50,377 nt of DNA. Source: a virus. The notes beneath the pieces were generated by a model. It saw nothing but the letters and a program-made list of their open reading frames with translations. It searched no databases and was not told the origin of the DNA. The translations under genes and the position numbers were made by a program. Numbering within the stretch: position 1 is the stretch's first letter; each line of letters begins with the position of its first letter. The stretch covers positions 1 through 50,377 of IMG/VR virus record IMGVR_UViG_3300030020_000030; one strand, given 5' to 3'. This document shows positions 1,242 through 49,826 of the stretch, in pieces.

Positions 1242-1922
1242 ATGGCCAAAGCACCTGTAAAGACCAAGCCCGCTGCGTTCGTCTCGGCCCCGTCCGTGGC
1301 ATCTCCACCAGCCCCGGTATCTCAGCCCCCCGAGACACGGCGAGCCAGTCGGGACGCCATGGTGGACGCCGCCGAGGCTGTCCCAGTGGTCCCAGTGCCG
1401 CCCCTCCTCAAGCTAGACGATATCCACAAGATGGGGCTACCCGTCGAGAAGGCCCTGATTAAGCTTAACATCGCTGTCCGTGAAGCGATGGGCGAGATTA
1501 AGGGCCATGGTGATCGTGCTGCCCATCTGGCTCAAATCTACTCCAAACTGCGCACTGCACAGGAGATTTTGACGCTTCAGATCAAGGACTTTGAGGCCGT
1601 TATCTCTGTGGTCCAGGGCGTGTTGATCCCAGAGTCTTTCGAGCGTGAGCAGTTGCAGACACTGACCACCATGAACGGCGACCGTTTGACCGTTGTCATG
1701 AAGCTGTATGCTTCGGTTAACGGAGAGAATAAGGACAAAGCTTACAAGTGGCTGCGCGACAATGGCCATGGCGCTATGATCCAGGAAACCATCAACGCAA
1801 GTTCGCTTAGCGCGTTTGCGAAGGCTGAGTTGGCCGAGGGCCGTGAACTGCCCGACGAGATCTTCTCGATCTTCACCAAACCCAGCACCACCCTGACCCG
1901 CAAAAAGGTGAAGGCGAAATAA
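1242..1922 (+). CDS. Phage early protein with Pro-rich N-terminus and helical body (226 aa)
   Basis: The ATG follows AAAGGATACC. Residues 1 to about 55 are low-complexity, rich in Ala, Pro and Val. The remainder is predicted helical (KALIKLNIAVREAMGEIKGHG and following). The C-terminal part contains WLRDNGHGAMIQETINASSL and AFAKAELAEGRELPDE, a pattern I associate with a widespread phage protein family of unknown role found near replication and recombination genes; this is recollection of a pattern, not a search. A structural or DNA-metabolism accessory role is possible. Confidence 0.75.
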   Translation: MAKAPVKTKPAAFVSAPSVASPPAPVSQPPETRRASRDAMVDAAEAVPVVPVPPLLKLDDIHKMGLPVEKALIKLNIAVREAMGEIKGHGDRAAHLAQIYSKLRTAQEILTLQIKDFEAVISVVQGVLIPESFEREQLQTLTTMNGDRLTVVMKLYASVNGENKDKAYKWLRDNGHGAMIQETINASSLSAFAKAELAEGRELPDEIFSIFTKPSTTLTRKKVKAK

Positions 1923-1923
1923 G

Positions 1924-2172
1924 ATGTCGGAACCTGTTATCCTAAAGCCGCACACTTGCAGCACCTGCTCCCTTAAGGAACGTGATCCTAATGGGGGTAT
2001 CATATGCCGCAGTGGTCCTCCCTCCAGCACGGCGATCGTTGTGCCGGGTCCACAGGGTCAACCCATGATCATTGGTCAGACTACCAGCTTCCCTCAGCCC
2101 AAGGGTGAGGACTGGTGCTGGGACCACCCCGATCTTATTCGGCCCCGCAAGTCAGCAATCATTCAAAATTAG
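1924..2172 (+). CDS. Small Cys-containing phage protein (82 aa)
   Basis: The ATG lies one base after the preceding stop codon. The product has CSTCSLKE (Cys12 and Cys15), a third Cys in IICRSG (28) and a Trp-Cys-Trp near residues 63-65, a possible four-Cys metal site in an otherwise extended protein with VVPGPQGQPM. This arrangement resembles short phage proteins in which a CxxC pair is followed by a Pro/Gly-rich stretch and a final WCxxH-like group. Function not known. Confidence 0.7.
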   Translation: MSEPVILKPHTCSTCSLKERDPNGGIICRSGPPSSTAIVVPGPQGQPMIIGQTTSFPQPKGEDWCWDHPDLIRPRKSAIIQN

Positions 2173-2182
2173 GGACAAGTCG

Positions 2183-2413
2183 ATGTTGAAACAGTATATC
2201 CTTGTAATGCGGGACGTTGGCTATCACTTGATTGGTCCCTTTGACAAAGATGAAGATGCGCAGCTTTGGGCTATGCTGCAATGGGACCAAGCAAAAGGCG
2301 ATCCGCGTTGGCAGATCCTGGGTATGACAACCCAACCCGCTAAGGATCTGCCTTCGGTCTATGCTCCGCTTCAGGCACAATTGCTTAAGCAGCAGGGTCA
2401 GGACATCATCTAG
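2183..2413 (+). CDS. Small phage protein of unknown function (76 aa)
   Basis: I chose ATG 2183, which has AGGGACA at the right distance and begins after the preceding gene's stop, over an upstream in-frame ATG at 2072 that would overlap the preceding gene by 100 bases. The product starts MLKQYILVMRDVGYHLIGPF and looks like a small alpha/beta protein: a strand pair followed by helices (DAQLWAMLQWDQ). It is the last gene before the promoter at 2427. Function unknown. Confidence 0.7.
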   Translation: MLKQYILVMRDVGYHLIGPFDKDEDAQLWAMLQWDQAKGDPRWQILGMTTQPAKDLPSVYAPLQAQLLKQQGQDII

Positions 2414-2415
2414 CA

Positions 2416-2458
2416 ATCTGCAGGGCTTGACACCCTGCAGATGCTATGGTACTATAAT
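2416..2458 (+). promoter_or_regulatory. Promoter with the -35 box in the loop of a perfect inverted repeat
   Basis: TTGACA (2427-2432) and TACTAT (2450-2455) are 17 bases apart; a second possible -10, TATAAT, is at 2453-2458. The -35 box lies in the 7-base loop between ATCTGCAGGG (2416-2425) and CCCTGCAGAT (2433-2442), a perfect 10-bp inverted repeat. This would serve the 296-residue gene starting at 2487. The repeat could be an operator or a stem-loop ending the upstream transcript. The same architecture recurs at 45270, 45615 and 46005. Confidence 0.75.
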
Positions 2459-2486
2459 CGAGCCACTTTCACATATAGGAGCTACA

Positions 2487-3377
2487 ATGGCACAGAAACC
2501 GACCACCGCTGCACCCGCACGTAAGGCCCCCACTCAGGCCGTCACCGTCAAGGAAACCAAAACCACCGCAGTCGCCGCCCCAATCCCGAGCTTCATGCAG
2601 GGCATGCGGGGCCAAGGGACCGAGAACCTCGGTCAGGGCGACATCGAAACCCCCCGCCTCAAACTCCTGCAAGCGGTTTCCCCCGAGTGCGAAGAGTTCG
2701 ACGAGGCCAAGCAAGGCGAGTATTGGCACAGCGTTGCCGAAGTCTCGCTCGGCAAGGAACTTCGCATCGTCCCGCTTTACATCGACATGCGCGCCATCTT
2801 GTGGCGTCCGCGTCATCAAGGCGGCGGCATCCTTGCCCGTGCTGATGATGGCGTGAACTGGACACCGCCGAACGCTGAATTCGAAGTGCAGCCCTACAAG
2901 GACAACAAGAAACTCGTCAAGTGGCGCACCAAGCCCACTGTCGCGGCTTCTGGTCTTCTCGAATGGGGCAGCACCGATCCCGAAGACCCGAACAGCCAGC
3001 CTGCCGCAACCCGCATGTATAACATGGCGGTGGCTCTGCCGGATCATCCCGAACTGGGCATCGGCGTCGTCACGCTGCAGCGCTCTGGCATCCGGGTTGC
3101 CCGCAAGTTCTTGGGCAAGCTGAAGCTGATGTCGGTGCCGTCTTTCGGCTGCTACTTCACCATGGGCAACGTTCGCGACCAAAACCCATCGGGTGATACC
3201 TTCTACAACTACTCCTTCACCGCTGCAGGCTTCGTGCAGGACGAGGAAGAGTTCATGCAATACAAGGGACTGTATGAGAGCTTCAAGCTGATGGGCCTTA
3301 ACATCAAGGACCTTGAGAGCGCTCAGGAAGAAGGCGTCATCGACGGCACCGTCGATGCTGGCGGGGCCAAGTACTAA
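2487..3377 (+). CDS. Conserved phage early protein, possible ssDNA-binding/recombination accessory (296 aa)
   Basis: ATG 2487 follows AGGAGCTACA; an upstream in-frame ATG at 2361 lies inside the preceding gene and upstream of the promoter, so it is not used. Residues 1-45 are a disordered Ala/Pro/Thr/Lys-rich tail. A globular part begins near ETPRLKLLQAVSPE and contains VPLYIDMRAILWRPR, MAVALPDHPELGIGVVTLQRSG and a conserved-looking PSFGCYFTMGN. This layout is familiar from a common phage protein family encoded beside polymerase genes and often guessed to bind single-stranded DNA. I have no direct motif for that, so the role is inference. It has its own promoter, suggesting high expression. 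Confidence 0.75.
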   Translation: MAQKPTTAAPARKAPTQAVTVKETKTTAVAAPIPSFMQGMRGQGTENLGQGDIETPRLKLLQAVSPECEEFDEAKQGEYWHSVAEVSLGKELRIVPLYIDMRAILWRPRHQGGGILARADDGVNWTPPNAEFEVQPYKDNKKLVKWRTKPTVAASGLLEWGSTDPEDPNSQPAATRMYNMAVALPDHPELGIGVVTLQRSGIRVARKFLGKLKLMSVPSFGCYFTMGNVRDQNPSGDTFYNYSFTAAGFVQDEEEFMQYKGLYESFKLMGLNIKDLESAQEEGVIDGTVDAGGAKY

Positions 3378-3943: not shown

Positions 3944-4175
3944 TGCCGACGAGGAAGCCTGGGTAGATGGACTACTCGATGCTTTTGCTGCTAACCGTAA
4001 TAAAGCCTCAGAATGGGAGCGCGGATTTCTGGATGATCAGGCAGAGCGCTTCGAAGAGCATGCTGCAGAAACCCGGTTCTCACCCAAGCAATGGTCTATC
4101 CTGGACAGGGTGGCCTACAAGCTTGGTTACGTGAAGCGTCAATTCGATGAGGATAGGGGCTTTCCCGATGAATGA
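3933..4175 (+). CDS. Small acidic helical phage protein (80 aa)
   Basis: ATG 3933 is preceded by CGGAGCAAG. It starts MALNADEEAWVDGLLDAFAA and ends YVKRQFDEDRGFPDE; the segment FSPKQWSILDRVAYKLGY recalls the C-terminal part of small phage proteins of the type 'FTPKQxxIxxxI', whose role is unknown. The frame is also open upstream to 3549, but the ribosome site and amino acid composition support the later start. It overlaps thyX by 8 bases. Confidence 0.75.
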   Translation: MALNADEEAWVDGLLDAFAANRNKASEWERGFLDDQAERFEEHAAETRFSPKQWSILDRVAYKLGYVKRQFDEDRGFPDE

Positions 4176-4896
4176 TCGTTTCACTCTCTCGGTCCTTGAT
4201 CATGGATCGGTGCGCTTGGCCAATCTGGCAGGCCCGGTGCGCCGTCCTAACCGCGACTTTGATGCAGATGATATCGATCCTGCATTAGCAGCCCGCATGT
4301 CATTTGATGGTGGACTGGAGCCGAGGGCAAGAGAACTGGACCTTAAGCTTTGTGATTATCTCATGAAGAACCGGCACACTACGCCATTCGAGATGATTGA
4401 ATGCTGGATCGAGATGGAGATGCCGATTTTTGTGGCCCGTCAGTTTGTGCGCCACCGCACCGCTGCCATTAACGAAGTGTCGGCACGCTACGTGACCCTG
4501 CCCGAGAAATGGTATATACCCGACATTCGCATAATCGGTGCCAAGCCGAAGAGTGTAAAGCAGGGCAGGGTTATTGGTTCAGAGCCTACACTTGAGCAGA
4601 AGCTGTTTGCATGTAATCTCAACAGTCACTGCCAGAATGGTTATGACCAGTACAAGATGGCGATCGCTGATGAAATTCCCAATGAACTGGCACGCTGTTT
4701 CCTCAGTCTAAATCACTATACTCATTGGCTATGGAAGCAAGATCTCCACAATATCATGGGTTTCTTGTCTCTGCGCGTCCACGGTCACGCACAGTACGAA
4801 GCGCGAGAGTATGGTGAGGCGGTGCTGCAGCTGCTAACATCATCGCTGCCTGAGAGCATGGAGTTATTTAACAGATACCGCCGCATGTCGGGCTAA
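4168..4896 (+). CDS. thyX: Flavin-dependent thymidylate synthase ThyX
   Basis: Makes dTMP from dUMP with FAD, NADPH and methylene-tetrahydrofolate, supplying thymidylate for phage DNA. The signature RHRX7S is present as RHRTAAINEVS (residues 95-105 from ATG 4168), followed by ARY. The C-terminal FLSLR...AQYEARE region corresponds to the second substrate-binding segment of the family. Length (242 aa) is normal for ThyX. ATG 4168 is chosen because it follows GGATAGGGGC and overlaps the previous stop by 8 bases; an ATG at 4147 adds seven residues. It sits directly before the polymerase gene, fitting a nucleotide-supply role in the same operon. Confidence 0.95.
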   Translation: MNDRFTLSVLDHGSVRLANLAGPVRRPNRDFDADDIDPALAARMSFDGGLEPRARELDLKLCDYLMKNRHTTPFEMIECWIEMEMPIFVARQFVRHRTAAINEVSARYVTLPEKWYIPDIRIIGAKPKSVKQGRVIGSEPTLEQKLFACNLNSHCQNGYDQYKMAIADEIPNELARCFLSLNHYTHWLWKQDLHNIMGFLSLRVHGHAQYEAREYGEAVLQLLTSSLPESMELFNRYRRMSG

Positions 4897-4944: not shown

Positions 4945-6834
4945 ATGGGATATAGCACCCCGATACTCATTCGATCAATGGATGAGGCGCAAATCATTCT
5001 TCGACGCCTTGAGGAAACGGACTCCGTGGTTTATGACTGTGAAACCACAGGGCTTTCGTGGAAGACTGATAGGATCGTCGGCCATGTTTTCACCTTTGGA
5101 GAACGGCCAGACGATAGTTATTACGTACCAGTCAGGCATGGACTTGATTACTTATCTGGCAATATTATCCAGCATCCAGATAAGGCGGGCCATCCATTTG
5201 AGTTGGCTATGGCGGAAATATCTAGAAGGCGGCGAAATCTGCATTGGGTGGGTCACCATTTTCAATTCGACCTTATGTTTATGTGGTCCCACGGAATTGA
5301 AGTTTCCGGAACCATGGAAGATACCGAAGTAAACGATGCACTACTTGATGAATTTGCGGCATCCCACAGCTTAGATAGCGCATGTAAACGTGCAAACACA
5401 GTGGCAAAGCAGGGGAGCGAACTCTATAAACACTTAGCTGGTAAGTTTGGCGGACCCCCCGAACGCCGTGCTCAAATAGGCAATTTCTGGAAGCTGGACG
5501 GGCATGATCTCATTGGCTTCGATTACGCCGCAGGCGATGGTGTGTCAACCTGGAACTTGTGGGAAAAGCAGATCGAGGCGCTGGCGCGACCGTTTAATGC
5601 TGAAGGTGATAGCCTAGAATTTATGCGCGGCTTGGAGAGCCGGGTTACCCGCACAGTATACCGCATGACCAGGCGTGGTATCAAGATTGATGTGGGCCGT
5701 CTTGATGAGATTTTACATATCCTGGAAACCAGGATCATCGAGGCGCGCAAAGTACTACCAGATGGGTTTAACATTAACTCATCAAAAGAAATCCGTGGCC
5801 TAATGGAGAAGGCTGGGCGCACCGACTGGCCAATGACCGCACCAAGCAAAACCTTTCCACAGGGCCAGCCACAGTTTAATGAGGCATATTTGTCTTCGGT
5901 CCCCGAAGGCGCACCAATCCTTGCACTACGCAAATGGGAGAACATGCGTAATACTTTCGCGCTGCCCATGAAGGAAACTCACTTGTGGAATGGTCGGGTC
6001 CACGCCACGTTTACCCAAATGGCAAATGATGACTATGGCACAGTCACTGGCCGCTTCTCGTCTTCTCAGCCCAATCTACAGCAGGTACCGAAGAGAGACA
6101 AGGAAAAGGCCAAACTGATCCGCAGTATGTTTATCCCCGATGACGGCCTGGACTGGTGGGACGCCGACTTGAGCCAGTGCGAGCCTAGGCTACTCGCACA
6201 CTACTCAGAGAGCCGCGTCCTTGTCTCCGGATACCTGTCCAGCCCGCCCGTGGATGCTCATACCGCCGTCGCTACAGCAGCCTCCATCGACCGCGAGAGC
6301 GGCAAGAGGCTTAACCAGACGCTCATTACTGGTGGTGGTAAGGGCAAAATTGTCGCCATGCTGGGAGAGCGGGGTGTAGAAATCTACAACAAGTATTTCG
6401 AGGCCATGCCCGAAGTAAAGGCCCTACAGAGGAATGCAGGGAACCGTATGAAAGCGCGGGGGTATGTGATTAGTCTTCTCGGCCGTTTGGCCAGACTTGA
6501 ACATAGTGACAAGTCCTATTTGGCCATCAATCGTCTGCTTCAGTGTGGGAATGCTGACATCGTTAAGTATGCTATGGTTGAGATCGACGACTACTTCGAG
6601 AGCCGGGGCGACGAGTGTGCAATGCTTAACACTGTGCATGACGCACTCGGGTTTCAGGCGGACCGGACCAACAACGATCATATTGAACAGATGAATGAAG
6701 CTTTGCGATTGATGACTGATTTCGGCCCTGACCGAGGGGTTTACCTAAAGGTTCCAATGGTAGCAGATTTCGGTATCGGTCGCAACTGGGCTGATGCCAC
6801 TTTCCCGCAAGAGAAGATGTTGTTTGGAGAATAA
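4945..6834 (+). CDS. dpoZ: Family A DNA polymerase with 3'-5' exonuclease, likely DpoZ
   Basis: Replicative PolA-type polymerase, 629 aa. ATG 4945 follows GAGGG. Exonuclease domain: DCE (Asp31, Glu33), VGHHFQFD (Asp109) and YAAGD (Asp198), all proofreading acids present. Polymerase: TGRFSSSQPNLQQVP (about 368-382), motif A DADLSQCEPR (catalytic Asp408), motif B RESGKRLNQTLITGGGKG (Arg450, Lys454), motif C VHDA (Asp566). Unusual: by alignment by eye with E. coli Pol I, Phe762 is Gln458 and Tyr766 is Thr462, Tyr706 is Leu409 and Glu883 is Ala567. A genome with purZ, mazZ and datZ and a PolA-type enzyme points to DpoZ, the polymerase that prefers 2-aminoadenine; that preference is inferred from context. 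No 5'-3' exonuclease domain is present. Confidence 0.85.
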   Translation: MGYSTPILIRSMDEAQIILRRLEETDSVVYDCETTGLSWKTDRIVGHVFTFGERPDDSYYVPVRHGLDYLSGNIIQHPDKAGHPFELAMAEISRRRRNLHWVGHHFQFDLMFMWSHGIEVSGTMEDTEVNDALLDEFAASHSLDSACKRANTVAKQGSELYKHLAGKFGGPPERRAQIGNFWKLDGHDLIGFDYAAGDGVSTWNLWEKQIEALARPFNAEGDSLEFMRGLESRVTRTVYRMTRRGIKIDVGRLDEILHILETRIIEARKVLPDGFNINSSKEIRGLMEKAGRTDWPMTAPSKTFPQGQPQFNEAYLSSVPEGAPILALRKWENMRNTFALPMKETHLWNGRVHATFTQMANDDYGTVTGRFSSSQPNLQQVPKRDKEKAKLIRSMFIPDDGLDWWDADLSQCEPRLLAHYSESRVLVSGYLSSPPVDAHTAVATAASIDRESGKRLNQTLITGGGKGKIVAMLGERGVEIYNKYFEAMPEVKALQRNAGNRMKARGYVISLLGRLARLEHSDKSYLAINRLLQCGNADIVKYAMVEIDDYFESRGDECAMLNTVHDALGFQADRTNNDHIEQMNEALRLMTDFGPDRGVYLKVPMVADFGIGRNWADATFPQEKMLFGE

Positions 6835-6835
6835 A

Positions 6836-7060
6836 ATGTCAAGTGCATCTCACGCTGTTTGTGACCGCATTCAGCTTAAATTCGGTGACCTTGATCCTGA
6901 AGCGCCAGCTAAGTATTTGCGTGATAACGGATATATAATCGTTAATTGTATTATATATCCTGGAAGTCTGGATAAGAAACCAACGCAGGATGAGATGGAC
7001 TGCATTAAATTCCTGGCTTATGAGTGGGATTATAGATATAATGGAACCATCCACACATGA
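6836..7060 (+). CDS. Small phage protein of unknown function (74 aa)
   Basis: ATG 6836 follows the polymerase stop by one base with GGAGAATAA as ribosome site inside the polymerase end. The product contains PEAPAKYLRDNGYIIVNCIIYPG and an acidic aromatic end (FLAYEWDYRY). The next gene starts within its stop (ATGA overlap). It is AT-richer than its neighbours. No motif recognised. Confidence 0.7.
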   Translation: MSSASHAVCDRIQLKFGDLDPEAPAKYLRDNGYIIVNCIIYPGSLDKKPTQDEMDCIKFLAYEWDYRYNGTIHT

Positions 7061-7512
7061 CCAAAGAAATCGACATTCAACGCACTATCCTTGATGCAGT
7101 GCGTGAAGCCAATGGTTGGGGAATCAAGTCGTCCAACATGTATGTCAATGGCATACCAGACCTTACTGTGACTTTACCATATGGAGCGCACACTACCCAT
7201 TTTATTGAGGTTAAAAAGCTGGATGCGCTGCCAGTTAAAGATGATCACTTTGTCAAGTTCGCCCACCCCTTGACTAAGCTACAGGAGCAGTGTATCCTTG
7301 GCATCGTCAAAGCAGGGGGATCAGCCGCGTGGTGGGTGGTGTACAAGACTAAGACCGAAGACCTGATCTACGTTGGATTAACCCTGGGTGACATACCCAC
7401 AAAAGCGGAGTTTCTACAAAAATGTCTACGACGCAAAATCGGCCCTCGCGGCGTCCGGTGGTCATCGATGTTACCTCCGTTGCTCCAGTGGCAAGTGAGC
7501 CTGTGCAGGTAA
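7057..7512 (+). CDS. VRR-NUC / resolvase-like PD-(D/E)XK nuclease
   Basis: The N-terminal pattern EIDIQRTILDAVREANGW then NGIPDLTV (Asp near residue 36) and HFIEVKK (Glu-x-Lys near 51-53) is the catalytic core of the VRR-NUC branch of PD-(D/E)XK nucleases. LTKLQEQCILGIVKAGGSAAWWVV matches the usual helix-strand that follows. Such phage enzymes are thought to process branched DNA during replication or packaging. It starts inside the previous stop (ATGA). The last 30 residues overlap the next gene by 91 bases and look less conserved, so a recent extension of this end is possible. Confidence 0.8.
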   Translation: MTKEIDIQRTILDAVREANGWGIKSSNMYVNGIPDLTVTLPYGAHTTHFIEVKKLDALPVKDDHFVKFAHPLTKLQEQCILGIVKAGGSAAWWVVYKTKTEDLIYVGLTLGDIPTKAEFLQKCLRRKIGPRGVRWSSMLPPLLQWQVSLCR

Positions 7513-7832
7513 TCCCGAAGACTCTATTTCAGCACATCGAGGATATCCTTGGTGAAATGCATGTGGTGTTAGTAGAACGGGGGGCAAACTACGCCGACAT
7601 CAAGGACAATAGCACCCCGTTTAAGGGCGTGATGGAGTCCCTTGGCATTCAAGTCCCCGAGGGCATGACAGATGTTGAATTTCACTGCATGTCAAACATC
7701 GCTACCAAACTAGCACGGTTTGCTTCTGGCAACCGTCAGCATGAAGACAATTTTGTCGACATTGCAAATTACACAGTGTTGATGCTGGCCGATCTGCGTC
7801 GGCGCAAAGAGCATGCATCACTACAACCTTAA
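7422..7832 (+). CDS. DUF6378-like all-helical protein in the Z-nucleotide operon (136 aa)
   Basis: The start at 7422 has GGAG 11 bases upstream and overlaps the nuclease gene by 91 bases. After a disordered 35-residue start, the protein reads HIEDILGEMHVVLVERGANYAD, then MSNIATKLARFASG and EDNFVDIANYTVLMLADL. These resemble the DUF6378-type phage proteins, helical proteins with a conserved KLAR and D..VDIANY pattern that look MazG-like. A nucleotide-binding or nucleotide-hydrolysing role beside purZ is inference. A shorter form could start at the Met near 7558, but no ribosome site is seen there. Confidence 0.7.
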   Translation: MSTTQNRPSRRPVVIDVTSVAPVASEPVQVIPKTLFQHIEDILGEMHVVLVERGANYADIKDNSTPFKGVMESLGIQVPEGMTDVEFHCMSNIATKLARFASGNRQHEDNFVDIANYTVLMLADLRRRKEHASLQP

Positions 7833-7854: not shown

Positions 7855-9006
7855 ATGTCTATTCGTGATTTCGTACATCATGGCAAAGCATCTGTCATCG
7901 TCGGCGGTCAATTTGGTAGTGAGGCCAAGGGCCTTGCCGCTGCTATCGTGGCCCGAAACGACCACATGGTGTCAAAGACTGGGCGGCAGTTCATCAGCAC
8001 CACCAACGCGGGTGCACAGGCTGGACACACCACAATCCTGGAAAACGGCACCAAGTTTGTGTGCTATCATCTGCCGACCATTGGGGTAATGTCACCCCAG
8101 TCCATCATTTACCTTAACGCAGGGTCGATCATCGACGTTAAGTTGTTATACAAAGAAATTCATGACGTGTCTGGTGCGACAGGCGAGGATGCCAACGCAC
8201 TGATGGCCCGCATCCGCATCCACCCGAAAGCTGCCATCATTCATGAAGAACACAAGATGATGGAGTCTGGCAACAACCGAGGAAGCGGGGCCACCACTCA
8301 TCTTGGGTCAACGATGAAAGGGGTTGGTGCAGCCCTAGCCTCTAAGATCATGCGGAGGCCAGGCATTCTTGCGGGTGACTCTATCAACCCAAATGGTCCA
8401 CTCAAGGTTGAGGTCATGGACCTGAACCATTATATGCACAAAAAGGGTTCGGTAACGGTTGAAATTCCACAGGGCACCGGCCTGAGCTTGAATGCCTCGC
8501 GCTTCTACCCACATTGCACTGGCCGGGATTGCTGGGTTGGTCAGGGCATCGCTGACGCGTCTATTAATCCTCGGTTCCTTGGCGAGGTAATGATGGTTCA
8601 GCGAACCTTCCCAATCCGCGTTGGCCATGTTTACCATCCCGACACTGGCGAACGTATTGGTGATAGTGGCCCGTTTTATCCCGACAGCCAGGAAATGCAG
8701 TGGGATGACCTGCCTGGAGTAGAGCCAGAGCGCACCACGGTTACCCAGCGTGTCCGCCGCATCTCGGCTTGGTCACGTATGCAATACCTAGAGGCACTGC
8801 GCCTTAATAACCCAACTATCGTTCTCACCACCTTCATCAACTACCTGAAGGATGAGAAGTACCTCAATATCCTTCGCAACCGAATGGGCCTGATCCACCA
8901 GGAAACCGGTATTAATCCGGATACGTTGTGGTCATGGGGGCCGAAGGTAAACGAGTGGGGTGAGAACACCGTTGCAAAATTCCCGTGTTATGAGGCAAGC
9001 AAATGA
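7855..9006 (+). CDS. purZ: PurZ, N6-succino-2-amino-deoxyadenylate synthase
   Basis: A PurA (adenylosuccinate synthetase) relative that joins dGMP and aspartate, the first committed step towards 2-aminoadenine nucleotides. 383 aa, shorter than the roughly 430 of PurA. The nucleotide loop GGQFGSEAKG (17-26) has Ser22 where PurA has its catalytic Asp (GDEGKGK), a change I recall as typical of PurZ. AGHTT (56-60) keeps the His of PurA. QGTGLSLNASRFYPHCTGRD replaces the PurA IMP-binding segment. The ATG follows CGGAGACTATAT. The next gene starts within the stop codon (ATGA), forming a coupled purZ-mazZ-datZ set. Completion of the pathway would need host PurB and kinases, since no purB is visible here. 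Confidence 0.93.
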   Translation: MSIRDFVHHGKASVIVGGQFGSEAKGLAAAIVARNDHMVSKTGRQFISTTNAGAQAGHTTILENGTKFVCYHLPTIGVMSPQSIIYLNAGSIIDVKLLYKEIHDVSGATGEDANALMARIRIHPKAAIIHEEHKMMESGNNRGSGATTHLGSTMKGVGAALASKIMRRPGILAGDSINPNGPLKVEVMDLNHYMHKKGSVTVEIPQGTGLSLNASRFYPHCTGRDCWVGQGIADASINPRFLGEVMMVQRTFPIRVGHVYHPDTGERIGDSGPFYPDSQEMQWDDLPGVEPERTTVTQRVRRISAWSRMQYLEALRLNNPTIVLTTFINYLKDEKYLNILRNRMGLIHQETGINPDTLWSWGPKVNEWGENTVAKFPCYEASK

Positions 9007-9341
9007 GCACCACTGGTCATTACAGCGAGTATGATGAATTCTTGCGCATGATGACGGAGGCGCAGCGATATAAGCTGCGCCTCAACGCTAAGAAGGGTTT
9101 TCTTGGCGACGTGCCACCAGCCGTGCTGCTGGGGCTTCTCAGAAAAGAGGTTGACGAGCTTGAGGAAGCAGCAGAGCGGGGATCCAAGATTGAAATGATC
9201 CTGGAAGCGGCTGACGTTGCTAACTTCGCCCTTGGTTTCATCATCTCGGCCCTTCAGACTGTGCAACCAATCAAGCCGGTGGAGCCTCTGGCCGCGCTGC
9301 ATAATCCGTCGGCAAAATTAGAAAGGACCGTCAATGTTTGA
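9003..9341 (+). CDS. mazZ: MazZ, MazG-like (d)GTP pyrophosphohydrolase
   Basis: Small all-helical NTP pyrophosphatase of the MazG superfamily (112 aa). The metal-binding signature ExxE...ExxD is present as KEVDELEE (Glu49, Glu52) and LEAADVAN (Glu68, Asp71). In Z-genome phages this enzyme hydrolyses dGTP/GTP to the monophosphate, giving PurZ its dGMP. Position between purZ (4-base overlap) and datZ (8-base overlap) supports that role over a general housekeeping MazG. The C-terminal 25 residues are Pro-rich and likely disordered. Confidence 0.9.
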   Translation: MSTTGHYSEYDEFLRMMTEAQRYKLRLNAKKGFLGDVPPAVLLGLLRKEVDELEEAAERGSKIEMILEAADVANFALGFIISALQTVQPIKPVEPLAALHNPSAKLERTVNV

Positions 9342-9948
9342 ACGTGAATATCGTGAAATGTCGTTCGTGCAGCGCTGGGGCATCATCCGCCGCGTCCGCG
9401 AGCAGTCCGTCGCTGAACATATGTATTATGTTGCCATCTATGCTGCCCAAACGGCAGACCTGATTGGTTGGAAGGGGGACCGAGGAGAATTGCTTAAGAT
9501 GGCATTGGTGCACGACTTGCCAGAGGGGGGCGTCGGTGATATTATGGGTCCTGCAAAGCGTGCGTCGGGTATCGGACCTGCCCTTAAGGTCGTAGAAGAG
9601 CAGTATATGAAAGGAGCATTCGGAGATTGGCCAAATCAGGACCACTTAGAGGTACGGAAGGTTCATGAAATGAAGCTAATCGTTAAGTTTGCTGATATTA
9701 TGGATGAGACAATGTTCCTTGCCACCGAGAAGCAGATGGGTAATGGTACCATTGGAAGCTTTTACGGAGCAAATATTATATGCCCTGCTCGTCAGGTATA
9801 TGAGCGGCTGAGCAAGGCATGGGGTAGGCTATTGCCAATAACCGTCAACAGCCATGAAGTCCACAGGATGCAATGGGGTGATATTGATAGTGCTCTAATC
9901 AGCGCCTCACGCGGAAACTCTTTCATCATCGCCAACCCGGAGTCTTGA
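9334..9948 (+). CDS. datZ: DatZ, HD-domain dATP triphosphohydrolase
   Basis: HD-family phosphohydrolase (204 aa) related to YfbR. Metal-binding residues are visible: VAEHM (His29), LVHDLPE (His60, Asp61, Glu64), GDI (Asp69) and a later Asp in KFADIMDE. In Z-genome phages DatZ removes dATP (and its breakdown products) so that adenine is kept out of viral DNA. It starts 8 bases before the end of mazZ with AAAGGA upstream, so the two are translationally coupled. A general 5'-nucleotidase is the alternative from sequence alone; the neighbours make DatZ much more likely. Confidence 0.9.
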   Translation: MFEREYREMSFVQRWGIIRRVREQSVAEHMYYVAIYAAQTADLIGWKGDRGELLKMALVHDLPEGGVGDIMGPAKRASGIGPALKVVEEQYMKGAFGDWPNQDHLEVRKVHEMKLIVKFADIMDETMFLATEKQMGNGTIGSFYGANIICPARQVYERLSKAWGRLLPITVNSHEVHRMQWGDIDSALISASRGNSFIIANPES

Positions 9949-9951
9949 TAT

Positions 9952-11370
9952 ATGTGGCATCTCAAGGGTAGCCCCTTCGAAGTTCAGCGGGTAGCCCTTG
10001 AGATGGCCGAAGGGCGTAAGGGATACAATTGGTTTATGGAACAGGGCCTAGGCAAGACAGCTGTGGCCCTGGAAGACTTTACCCGGCTTTCAGAAGGGGG
10101 CGTCGTCACCGATCTGGTGGTAGTGTGCCCCAACAGCTTAAAGGGCAACTGGGTCGCTGAAGCCAAAAGCTGGCAGTCGGGTGCTGAATTTCGCATGTGG
10201 GACGGCGAAGCCGCCTGGATCAAGCCCAAGATAAAATTTAAGGGTAATGCTCATGTGTTTAATTATGAGGCACTACTGTCATCTGGTGGTGACTATCTTG
10301 AAGAATTACTAAAAACGCGCCGCTGCATGCTGGTGCTGGATGAGAGCCACCGGATTAAAAACCACAGTAGCGCCATCACGAGTCGCATTTTGGGTAATTA
10401 CGGTAAAGAGGCTATCATTAAACGTTGCTTATCCGGCACCCCAATGACTAATACAGTTATTGACTTCTGGCCTCAACTTCGGTTCGCGGGTGCGCTTAAT
10501 GGTTCAAACGCAGTAGCATTTAATAAAAGGTATGGTGTTATAGTTCCTTCATTCAAAGGCAAGATGAAGACGGTCGGGGTAAAGAATGAAGAGGAACTGC
10601 GCGAGATCATAGCATCTTGCGGATTTAGGGCTACCAAGAAAGAGTGGGCTGATTTGCCCGAGAAGTTGTATCGCGACCCCATTAAAATTCCTATGCCGAC
10701 CGTTCTCCGCGAACATTATCAAACTATGCTAGAAGAATTTGTAGTAATGGTAAATGATGACACGGTGGTTACATCGGGCGCGGTTGTTGGTCAGTATCTT
10801 AAGCTGCAACAGATTTCTTCTGGTTTCATCTACGACCACGGCGCAGTGCACCGCCTCATCGAGACTAAGAAACTGCCCAAGTTTCAGGCGCTGATGGACG
10901 TTATAGATGGAAACGGAAGCACCAGCAAGACTTTGGTATTTGCTCACTTCAAGCCGACTTGCGGTGAATTGATAAACACTATGTTTGAGCAGACAGGTGT
11001 AAAACCCGCGTATATCGTTGGTGGCATGAAACCCGAGGAAATCAACAGGCAGAAAGACGAATTTAATAGTGCTGATGGCCCGCAAGTAATGGTGCTTCAG
11101 TTGAGCGCTGGTAAAGAGGGACATACCTTATTGGGTGATCCGGACCTTAATCCATGTCATACTGTTTGCTATTACGAAAACAACTTTAATCTTAACGATC
11201 GCATGCAGTCTGAGGACCGGCCACACAGATATGGGCAAAAGAACGCAGTATTATATAACGACTTTTCATCCTCTCCTATCGAGAGCCATGTCATCCATGC
11301 CTACCAGAAAAAACTAGAATTGGTTGAGTATCTGGTTGATAACCGGCCACGGTTAAAACAGGATGACTAA
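9952..11370 (+). CDS. SNF2-type superfamily 2 helicase
   Basis: DNA-dependent ATPase, 472 aa, the short phage form of the SNF2 family. Motif I is QGLGKTAVAL (GLGKT 32-36), motif II DESH (130-133), motif III SGTP (161-164), motif VI near the C-terminus as MQSEDRPHRYGQ. No nuclease or chromodomain is fused. Phage members are usually encoded beside the replication genes and are thought to remodel protein-DNA or branched DNA. It follows datZ by three bases with GGAG in the end of datZ, so it belongs to the same transcript. Whether it acts specifically on Z-DNA is unknown. Confidence 0.9.
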   Translation: MWHLKGSPFEVQRVALEMAEGRKGYNWFMEQGLGKTAVALEDFTRLSEGGVVTDLVVVCPNSLKGNWVAEAKSWQSGAEFRMWDGEAAWIKPKIKFKGNAHVFNYEALLSSGGDYLEELLKTRRCMLVLDESHRIKNHSSAITSRILGNYGKEAIIKRCLSGTPMTNTVIDFWPQLRFAGALNGSNAVAFNKRYGVIVPSFKGKMKTVGVKNEEELREIIASCGFRATKKEWADLPEKLYRDPIKIPMPTVLREHYQTMLEEFVVMVNDDTVVTSGAVVGQYLKLQQISSGFIYDHGAVHRLIETKKLPKFQALMDVIDGNGSTSKTLVFAHFKPTCGELINTMFEQTGVKPAYIVGGMKPEEINRQKDEFNSADGPQVMVLQLSAGKEGHTLLGDPDLNPCHTVCYYENNFNLNDRMQSEDRPHRYGQKNAVLYNDFSSSPIESHVIHAYQKKLELVEYLVDNRPRLKQDD

Positions 11371-47501: not shown

Positions 47502-49826
47502 ATGTCACAGGTGCTGATTTCTGATCGCTCGCTGCCTATTGACCTCGCATGTCGCTATATGTCTCATGGCTACCAGCCTGTAATTGTCCACCGTAATGCG
47601 GAGTGGGTCGCCAAGAATGGTCTGACCCGTCCCATCAATCAGCACGAGGGGTTCTTCTCTGAGGAGCAGATGCTTGAAGAGTTCAAGAACCACCCTTATT
47701 CCGGCATTGGTGTCCTCGGTGACCATTTCCGAGATGGAACCACTGGTCTTATGATCATCGACGTGGACATCGAGGACCAGCTTGATGGTGGCGCAACCAT
47801 GCAGGTGTTGGCCGACATCATTGGCACTCCAGCCCCGGTCAAGTATGGTTCCAAGGGTGGCACTTTCTTCGTTCGCTACCACTATCCAGACCGTATTACC
47901 GACATCATGGCCGAGCGCAGGCTAGCTGGTCCCAGTTTCATCAAGGCTACCAAGTTTTACATTCCCCACATTCCCTTCGAAAAGCCAACCAAGCCGCCTT
48001 GCATCGAGATTTTCGGTGCCGGTGGTGGAATGGGCTACACTGTAGTTCCCCCCTCCAAGCATCAGAAGCCAAACGACGATGGCACTGACCGTTTTTATCG
48101 TTGGATACCGTTTCCAGGAACTGACATCGTTCAAGACCTGTCTGAGGTTCCACCGTCCAATCTCCCTGCCCTCAAACCCTATCACTTGCTCCTCATTTAC
48201 CAATACGCAAAAAACCCGACTTCCCCGATTTTTCGGTACATCGGCCAAACTTCCCCTGGCGACCACCACCATTCCATGCTGTCCGCCACAACCTACATGT
48301 ACCATGAGAAGTTCACGGAAGACGAGATCGAGGAAATTTGCGCGCAGGAGGCAGAGCGTTCAGCACCTGATGATACCACTCTCAAGGAGCGATTGCAGGA
48401 AATCAAGATCGCAGTCAAGGCCCTGGCTAACAAGATCAAGGAGCAGAAGCCAGCTAAGCAGTCTGGCAAATCGGGTGGGTCGTCTGCCCTCAAGGTTCCG
48501 CTCGATCGCATCATGTACAACTGGTTGCGGGAACGCTACAAGCGGGAAGACTTAGGTTACTTTTCAGGTGTGGCCTATCACTGGGATGAAGGTTCCTGGC
48601 ACATCATCAAGGAACTGGGCGCAGACAATCCATGGCACATCATCAGCAACAAGCTGATCGACACTTTCGACATCGCGGGTCAAGCGGCGATTTCGGCATC
48701 GGTCAAGATGTTTCGTGATAGTATCTCACCACGCGTGGCGTCACCAGACCCCTACTTGATAGCCTTTGCTAATGAGGTTCTCGATACGCGCGACTTTTCA
48801 ATGCGGCCCGAAGAACGTGATGACAACATCGTGACCAGGATCGAGCATGGCTTTGACCCTAGCACCAAGTCCACAGTCTGGCAGCAGTTCCTCAAGAACC
48901 TCCTTCGGCCTCCTGCCGAGTATGAGGACTCACCAAACTACGAAACCGACTGGCGCAAGGCATACTGCGTGGTTGAAGAGTTCCTCGGTTACTGCTTAGT
49001 GCGCTCACATCAGTTCGAAAAGATGCTCTTCCTAATCGGGCGTCCTGGCACAGGCAAGTCAACCCTGTTCAAGGTAATCAACGCCATCCTGCCTCGGGGC
49101 TTTGTGTCAAACGTGGGTATGGACCAGTTCGACGATCCCAACTCCATGATCGACATGGCTACGGCCAATCTAAATGTAGCGTCGGAAGTGGACAGCCGAA
49201 ATAAGAACATCGACCGTATGCTGCAGAACGTGTGCTCAGGCGAGTTTGTGAAGCTCAAGGTTCTATACGAAGACGCCAAGAACGTTATCCTACCCACCCG
49301 CCTTCTGTTTCACGGCAACAACACCCCTGATACTTACGACAGCACTGGGGCCATTGAGCGCCGATCCCTGATTATCCGAACCACTGACGTCACGGTTGCA
49401 GGAACCAAGGATCAGGTGATGAACTATGATAGCCTACTCGCAGAGGAGGCACCTGGAATTCTGGCGGCACTTGCTAAAGCCTACCGCCGATTAATGGAAC
49501 GTGGACACTTTGACCCACCAGACTACTCGATGGAAGCGGCGAAGTCGATGACGGTCGAAGCAAATTCCGTGTCGCGCTGGTTGAGTGAATGCTGCGAGAT
49601 AGTAGAGAACATCGCGGACGGCACGACCAACAACGACCTTTACTCGCACTACTCTGAGTGGGCCACCATGAACGGGTTTAGGCCCGTCTTCAACTCTAGC
49701 ACCTGGGGTAAGAGGCTCACAGGTATGGGGCTACCAACGCGATCGCGCAAGTTACCGGGTAACAAGGTGGTAAACTTCAAAGCGATCAAGCTAATCACTA
49801 ACATTAATACAGGAGCACGCTACTGA
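47502..49826 (+). CDS. PrimPol (AEP) - D5-type SF3 helicase replication protein (774 aa)
   Basis: Primes and unwinds viral DNA. N-terminal archaeo-eukaryotic primase-polymerase: LMIIDVDIED (Asp87, Asp89), GSKGGTFFVRYHYP (116-129) and IEIFGAGGGMGYTVVPPSKH as the third motif. A linker (about 300-330) is Lys/Gln-rich. The C-terminal helicase has D5-like features and Walker A LIGRPGTGKSTLF (about 511-523). Length is normal for this fused type. ATG 47502 follows TTAGGACCCTCCTC. PrimPol in Z-genome phages such as S-2L is the nearest parallel. The gene follows the repeat array and its own promoter. Confidence 0.92.
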   Translation: MSQVLISDRSLPIDLACRYMSHGYQPVIVHRNAEWVAKNGLTRPINQHEGFFSEEQMLEEFKNHPYSGIGVLGDHFRDGTTGLMIIDVDIEDQLDGGATMQVLADIIGTPAPVKYGSKGGTFFVRYHYPDRITDIMAERRLAGPSFIKATKFYIPHIPFEKPTKPPCIEIFGAGGGMGYTVVPPSKHQKPNDDGTDRFYRWIPFPGTDIVQDLSEVPPSNLPALKPYHLLLIYQYAKNPTSPIFRYIGQTSPGDHHHSMLSATTYMYHEKFTEDEIEEICAQEAERSAPDDTTLKERLQEIKIAVKALANKIKEQKPAKQSGKSGGSSALKVPLDRIMYNWLRERYKREDLGYFSGVAYHWDEGSWHIIKELGADNPWHIISNKLIDTFDIAGQAAISASVKMFRDSISPRVASPDPYLIAFANEVLDTRDFSMRPEERDDNIVTRIEHGFDPSTKSTVWQQFLKNLLRPPAEYEDSPNYETDWRKAYCVVEEFLGYCLVRSHQFEKMLFLIGRPGTGKSTLFKVINAILPRGFVSNVGMDQFDDPNSMIDMATANLNVASEVDSRNKNIDRMLQNVCSGEFVKLKVLYEDAKNVILPTRLLFHGNNTPDTYDSTGAIERRSLIIRTTDVTVAGTKDQVMNYDSLLAEEAPGILAALAKAYRRLMERGHFDPPDYSMEAAKSMTVEANSVSRWLSECCEIVENIADGTTNNDLYSHYSEWATMNGFRPVFNSSTWGKRLTGMGLPTRSRKLPGNKVVNFKAIKLITNINTGARY

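Follow-up and report, generated by a model that had tools for sequence, protein, structure and literature searches.

A purZ-mazZ-datZ cluster and an O-helix variant of family-A DNA polymerase in a phage genome predicted to contain 2-aminoadenine

The DNA analysed here (the window) is the entire IMG/VR virus record IMGVR_UViG_3300030020_000030, 50,377 bases in length. As proposed in a preliminary description of the sequence, its purZ-mazZ-datZ genes form a Z-cluster of the S-2L/phiVC8 kind, complete with the diagnostic residues; a genome containing 2-aminoadenine (Z) is therefore by far the best prediction, and one that we make with good confidence. The Z-cluster is real and well supported, and it belongs to a large clade of which a single member has been cultured. 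The gene context of the cassette, which had been claimed as undescribed, is already known, and what is new is the variant form of the polymerase encoded nearby. The overlooked polA is the most informative neighbour of the cassette, and on the basis of its residues and phylogeny we propose that it represents a third class of Z-associated family-A polymerase. The preliminary description was silent on this directly upstream gene and on a primase-polymerase (PrimPol) gene located elsewhere in the window. The genes considered here are the following:

4147..4896, plus strand: thyX, flavin-dependent thymidylate synthase (Pfam Thy1, E 1e-36)
4945..6834, plus strand: polA, family-A DNA polymerase with 3'-5' exonuclease, of the proposed third Z-linked PolA clade
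6794..7060, plus strand: small gene related to Pam3_gp59, placed after polA and before the nuclease gene
7057..7512, plus strand: VRR-NUC/PD-(D/E)XK-like nuclease, a member of the module
7422..7832, plus strand: DUF6378-like all-alpha protein, common in the module and also found beside non-Z PolA genes
7855..9006, plus strand: purZ, predicted 2-amino-adenylosuccinate synthetase (PurZ), 383 aa, with Ser22, Val256, the Thr294-Thr297 loop and Asn329
9003..9341, plus strand: mazZ, predicted MazG-like (d)GTP pyrophosphohydrolase of the MazZ-2 (phiVC8) type, 112 aa, with Glu49/Glu52/Glu68/Asp71
9334..9948, plus strand: datZ, predicted HD-domain dATP triphosphohydrolase, 204 aa, with 14 S-2L DatZ residues matched
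9952..11370, plus strand: SNF2-family helicase, the conserved end of the module, 37% to that of phage vB_OspP_OH (OH)
47502..49826, plus strand: primase-polymerase (Prim-Pol/D5_N), the second polymerase of the phage

The minus strand carries phage head, tail and terminase genes. Genes related to the gp33, gp34 and gp59 families of cyanophage Pam3 lie in and beside the replication module (1242-3377 and 6794-7060).

The three cassette genes are present as open reading frames, all on the plus strand, and overlap by 4 bases (purZ/mazZ) and 8 bases (mazZ/datZ), with a 3-base gap between the end of datZ and the SNF2 helicase gene. The motif residues described earlier for MazZ (Glu49/Glu52/Glu68/Asp71) and DatZ (His29/His60/Asp61) occupy the numbered positions, and the profile searches proposed at that time returned PHROG matches far outside chance expectation for all three proteins: '2-aminooxy adenylosuccinate synthetase' for PurZ (E 8e-63), phrog_9860 for MazZ (E 2e-9) and dATP triphosphohydrolase for DatZ (E 1e-15). 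PurZ also matches the PDB PurZ structures of phiVC8 (E 6e-33) and S-2L (E 2e-32), and the best PDB match of the window DatZ is likewise a DatZ (E 1e-5).

Examination of the PurZ sequence places Ser22 at the position of the PurA catalytic Asp13, which is occupied by Ser in all 118 of the 118 aligned PurZ homologues. Val256 corresponds to a valine in S-2L so positioned that a ribose 2'-OH would clash with it, the Thr294-Thr297 loop is retained, and Asn329 matches phiVC8 Asn297 at the ATP-base site. Two deviations, both common to the nearest relative (L021/L036), are a GSEAKG loop of the PurZ0 form and Thr326 in place of the S-2L Asn305 that contacts the ATP adenine. The PurZ0 membership hinted at by the loop is ruled out by a tree of 85 PurZ-like proteins, in which the window falls inside a 75-row PurZ clade (SH-aLRT 100) and the Wayne and Ghobes PurZ0 proteins fall outside. 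Within the PurZ clade the window belongs to a 61-row clade (SH-aLRT 96), among whose rows OH is the only cultured phage; its sister is a 12-row clade of phiVC8, S-2L, SH-Ab 15497 and their relatives.

The four MazZ acids (Glu49/52/68/Asp71) match S-2L E35, E38, E50 and D53, while a counterpart of S-2L Arg83 was not placed in the window MazZ by alignment. The protein resembles the OH (45% over 69 aa) and phiVC8 proteins, i.e., MazZ-2 and not MazZ-1. In the case of DatZ, all 14 of the 14 published S-2L residues checked are identical: R14, W15, I17, Q24, A27, H29, H60, D61, E64, G68, P73, K75, K118 and D121 correspond to S-2L R19, W20, I22, Q29, A32, H34, H66, D67, E70, G74, P79, K81, K116 and D119, respectively. 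In S-2L these residues serve in metal binding (H34, H66, D67, D119, E70), phosphate binding (R19, K81, K116), base and sugar contacts (W20, I22, P79) and structure (Q29, A32, G74); the base and sugar contacts are thus kept in the window as Trp15, Ile17 and Pro73. These three specificity residues, together with PurZ Ser22 and the repeated co-location of the genes, make it highly improbable that the cassette consists of ordinary nucleotide-salvage genes (PurA, MazG and a 5'-nucleotidase), which is how the OH trio was annotated in 2020, in a paper that did not recognise OH as a Z phage (PMC7139368).

We assign to the cassette, with high confidence, the predicted function of making dZTP and removing dATP. 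MazZ would convert dGTP to dGMP, from which PurZ, with aspartate and using ATP or dATP, would form N6-succino-2-amino-dAMP; host PurB and kinases would complete dZTP, and DatZ would hydrolyse dATP. The phage would then replicate as ZTGC-DNA, probably by means of the adjoining PolA. Partial or regulated substitution, with only some A exchanged for Z and the pathway competing with the host dATP supply, would accord with the mere 12% substitution obtained in plasmid DNA when E. coli carries the S-2L cassette alone; we regard it as improbable, since characterised phages with the same gene set replace A completely (PMC12884076), and full replacement is probable for the window as well.

In 40 of the 118 aligned PurZ proteins (L042, L039, L030, L094 and others, many of them of the window clade), an Asp occupies the purine-donor site at which phiVC8 has Asn297. 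PurA has Asp at this site for GTP, and the Asp-bearing PurZ proteins may take GTP in place of ATP. The use of ATP or dATP has been measured for S-2L PurZ, and the phiVC8 PurZ structure is ATP-bound. In the purZ0 section of PMC12884076 the preferences of PurZ0 and PurZ are given as ATP and GTP 'respectively', an assignment at odds with the S-2L and phiVC8 data and probably reversed.

PurZ-like proteins also occur in bacteria. Six bacterial contigs (L269, L271, L273, L274, L275, L277), from sources comprising Mycobacterium gordonae, Flagellimonas, Betaproteobacteria, Acidobacteriota and Myxococcota, code for proteins of ~550 aa with a PurZ-like synthetase that bears Ser at the Asp13 site (GSEGKG). 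All six fall outside both PurZ and PurZ0. In three of them (L269:9458-11080, L275:9368-11065 and L277:9404-11065) Pfam identifies an N-terminal P-loop kinase-like domain fused to the PurZ-like domain.

The arrangement of genes around the cassette had been considered undescribed, yet the published phage vB_OspP_OH (MT028492; PMC7139368) shows the same order: polA, a small gene, nuclease, DUF6378-like, purZ, mazZ, a small gene, datZ and SNF2. Sequence identity between OH and the window is 34% for PolA, 37% for PurZ and SNF2, and 45% over 69 aa for MazZ; as in the window, a PrimPol-type primase and a family-A polymerase are found in one genome. Unlike the window, OH carries one more small gene, located between mazZ and datZ, lacks an annotated thyX beside polA, and is classed as a podovirus, whereas the window has tail genes of the siphovirus type, among them those for a tape-measure protein and a J-like fibre. 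The OH PolA carries Met at position 762 and Ser at 766 (Klenow numbering), compared to Gln and Thr in the window.

More distant Z phages share parts of the same arrangement. Like phiVC8 and ZP6, the window has a MazZ of the MazZ-2 type, DatZ, nearby nuclease and DUF6378-like genes and a family-A polymerase upstream, although in these two phages the nuclease (VRR-NUC) and DUF6378-like genes come after datZ. The S-2L Z-cluster (datZ-mazZ-purZ; PMC8342488) resembles that of the window in its three enzymes, its gene order and the key PurZ and DatZ residues, but S-2L has MazZ-1 and a PrimPol as its sole polymerase. The PurZ0 phages Wayne and Ghobes (DpoZ-1, DutZ, DmtZ) share with the window a Ser-type synthetase, the GSEAKG loop and a family-A polymerase; unlike them, the window possesses MazZ and DatZ, and its PurZ groups with PurZ. 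Neither DutZ nor DmtZ was identified among the window module genes.

A PurZ-driven scan of viral contigs covered 80 loci out of 441 encoding relatives. Near 89 purZ loci we found polA-like genes (72), nuclease (72), SNF2 (71), datZ (66), mazZ-2 (63) and DUF6378-like genes (61), and the full module order is the commonest arrangement. The occurrence of this order in dozens of IMG/VR contigs identifies a large clade of predicted Z phages, nearly all of them uncultured. Among the neighbours reported earlier, thyX and the SNF2 helicase are borne out, thyX being rare beside the cassette (3 of 89 other purZ loci). The VRR-NUC-like nuclease has no Pfam match, and its PHROG matches are exclusively to endonuclease- and helicase-labelled phage families. 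The DUF6378-like protein on its own falls below the Pfam cut-off (E 2.5e-4), whereas 38 of 40 homologues match DUF6378.

All direct phage matches of the DUF6378-like protein are Z phages. As a candidate Z-specific fourth gene it was nevertheless rejected: the family also occurs near polA in non-Z contigs, and the gene is thus better regarded as belonging to the replication module. Its predicted structure is a confident 4-helix model (pLDDT 88). A fold search of the PDB with this model, bearing on the idea of a MazG-fold pyrophosphohydrolase, gave no significant match, and an alignment of DUF6378-like proteins contains no conserved stretch.

Other purZ genes lie in different surroundings. On six viral contigs of 67-287 kb (L082, L084, L087, L089, L105, L113), mazZ and datZ were not detected within the fetched flank, and two of these (L089, L105) carry an ordinary Tyr766 PolA several kb from purZ. 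On two Pseudomonadota MAG contigs (L264 and L265, one of 994 kb), mazZ, datZ and polA are absent from the 10-kb flanks of purZ.

The exonuclease and polymerase catalytic residues of the window PolA are all intact. Its O-helix residues R450, K454, Q458 and T462 correspond to Klenow R754, K758, F762 and Y766, with Gln458 in place of Phe762 and Thr462 in place of Tyr766. The AlphaFold2 model (mean pLDDT 89.5) has phiVC8 DpoZ (7pbk) as its best PDB fold match. Current work recognises two polymerase groups in Z phages, and Phe at 766 is the sole published mark common to DpoZ-1 and DpoZ-2. The phiVC8 DpoZ-2 combines Phe459 (766) and Leu455 (762) with insertion 2 in helix O and insertion 3, on the fingers; the window enzyme has Thr462, Gln458 and neither insertion. 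In the PolA tree the window belongs to a 53-row clade (SH-aLRT 100) apart from both groups, DpoZ-2 (phiVC8/SH-Ab) forms a clade of its own (support 100) with the window outside, and the window PolA is not monophyletic with the DpoZ-1 polymerases of Wayne and Ghobes. Residues, insertions and tree together rule out membership in DpoZ-2 or DpoZ-1. A larger grouping of the window clade with DpoZ-2 could not be rejected (AU p 0.715). With or without a common origin of the two, Thr and Phe seem to have been acquired separately, given that Tyr is retained in basal polymerases of the window clade.

The linkage of residue 766 to purZ was assessed by scans driven by the polymerase sequence, not by PurZ. 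At 93 loci with Thr, Ser or Asn at 766, comprising all those with enough flank, purZ lies beside polA; the 10 such loci without purZ all end no more than 2.8 kb downstream. By comparison, 33 Tyr766 loci flanked by 5 kb or more are without purZ and 2 have it. These figures count records and not events, because some loci are near-duplicates. In a further scan from the cassette-less relatives, the non-purZ loci that have 5 kb or more of flanking sequence comprise 34 with Tyr, 2 with Phe and none with Thr, Ser or Asn. Leu occupies the position in L128, on a contig that is cut and so uninformative on purZ. The association is strong by count but reflects few independent events: a formal contrast would have 3-5 independent pairs to draw on, a number that cannot reach significance. 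Phe766 was rejected as a Z signature on account of L346, a PurZ-less record of 58.8 kb in which it is likewise present.

Three members of the window PolA clade (L137, L141, L142) keep the order polA, nuclease, SNF2 but lack the DUF6378-like, purZ, mazZ and datZ genes, and their polymerases have Tyr766; a search of these 50-66 kb records for PF00709 gave no match. Simple parsimony on the PolA tree gives six losses of Tyr766, all in PurZ-bearing lineages (DpoZ-1, DpoZ-2, L101, L270, the window lineage and L058), and one return to Tyr766, in the PurZ-less group. A single clade of all Thr/Ser rows that excludes L137, L141 and L142 is not rejected (AU p 0.228), and a double origin of Thr766 within the window clade is accordingly not supported. 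Outside this clade, L270, a contig from a Deltaproteobacteria/Myxococcota bin, carries purZ together with an otherwise unrelated PolA that has Phe762 and Thr766. Several basal Z-linked polymerases (L054, L064, L075, L078, L081, L086) keep Tyr766, and the change is thus not required for Z linkage.

This retention of Tyr766 would also be expected if the Z-cluster were real but its neighbouring PolA had no preference for Z, the O-helix Thr and Gln representing lineage drift, and if removal of dATP by DatZ together with an S-2L-like PrimPol accounted for Z. S-2L shows that a non-selective PrimPol and DatZ suffice, the window has both, and its PolA is without DpoZ insertions 2 and 3. We nevertheless consider this explanation rather unlikely, given that Thr, Ser and Asn at 766 are restricted to purZ loci in every scan while the cassette-less relatives have Tyr, that Thr766 also arose in the unrelated Z-linked lineage of L270, and that some modules with this type of PolA have no DatZ. 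At 41 of 137 module loci, datZ was not found between purZ and SNF2. Eight records of 42-45 kb with such modules combine purZ with a Thr766-type PolA (L210, L253, L262, L250, L255, L197, L198, L232), and PF12917 (DatZ-like) has no match anywhere in them, whereas the window and two controls do match. These modules appear as if the polymerase alone sufficed. If the DatZ-less phages make Z-DNA, the exclusion of A would have to come from the polymerase or from some other factor.

A selective role of the window PolA, as we infer it, may lie in Thr462. This residue (Ser or Asn in relatives) replaces the O-helix Tyr that fills the template side of the nascent base pair and would thereby make room for the 2-amino group of Z; it could also hydrogen-bond this minor-groove group, so that Z:T pairs would close productively. 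In Bacillus Pol I, Tyr714 (equivalent to 766) gives the pocket its form on the template side and, in a G:T pair, clashes with the 2-amino group of guanine, and in the Y714S mutant the Ser hydroxyl bonds the guanine 2-NH2 for 92% of the simulation, accommodating G:T (PMC12756729). Since 2-aminoadenine has the minor-groove amino group of guanine, and Thr, Ser and Asn are small and polar, these residues could contact Z in a similar manner. Klenow Y766S gains a more open site and loses fidelity (PMC3121766), and the Thr/Ser/Asn766 polymerases would accordingly be expected to make more G:T errors. The accommodation of Z by this route is tentative, with chances we judge to be a little short of even.

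The choice of Z over A in Z phages is unsettled, and the published DpoZ study found no single residue to account for it; the third group alters the same normally invariant Tyr in a different manner. The question can be tested by a one-residue swap, because natural relatives without the cassette and with Tyr exist, as do DatZ-less relatives. In this regard OH, which has been isolated and can be grown in the laboratory on Ochrobactrum sp. POC9, offers a direct route to checking for a Z genome. A dZTP-preferring polymerase with proofreading residues would also serve work on modified nucleic acids. For the phages themselves, we suggest, with slightly less than even confidence, that a large uncultured clade possesses a third class of Z-selecting family-A polymerase, tuned separately from the other two, in which Tyr766 has given way to Thr, Ser or Asn (with Gln, Met or Leu at 762) that would read the 2-amino group of Z, and that position 766 may be a convergent determinant of Z versus A across DpoZ-1, DpoZ-2 and this class.
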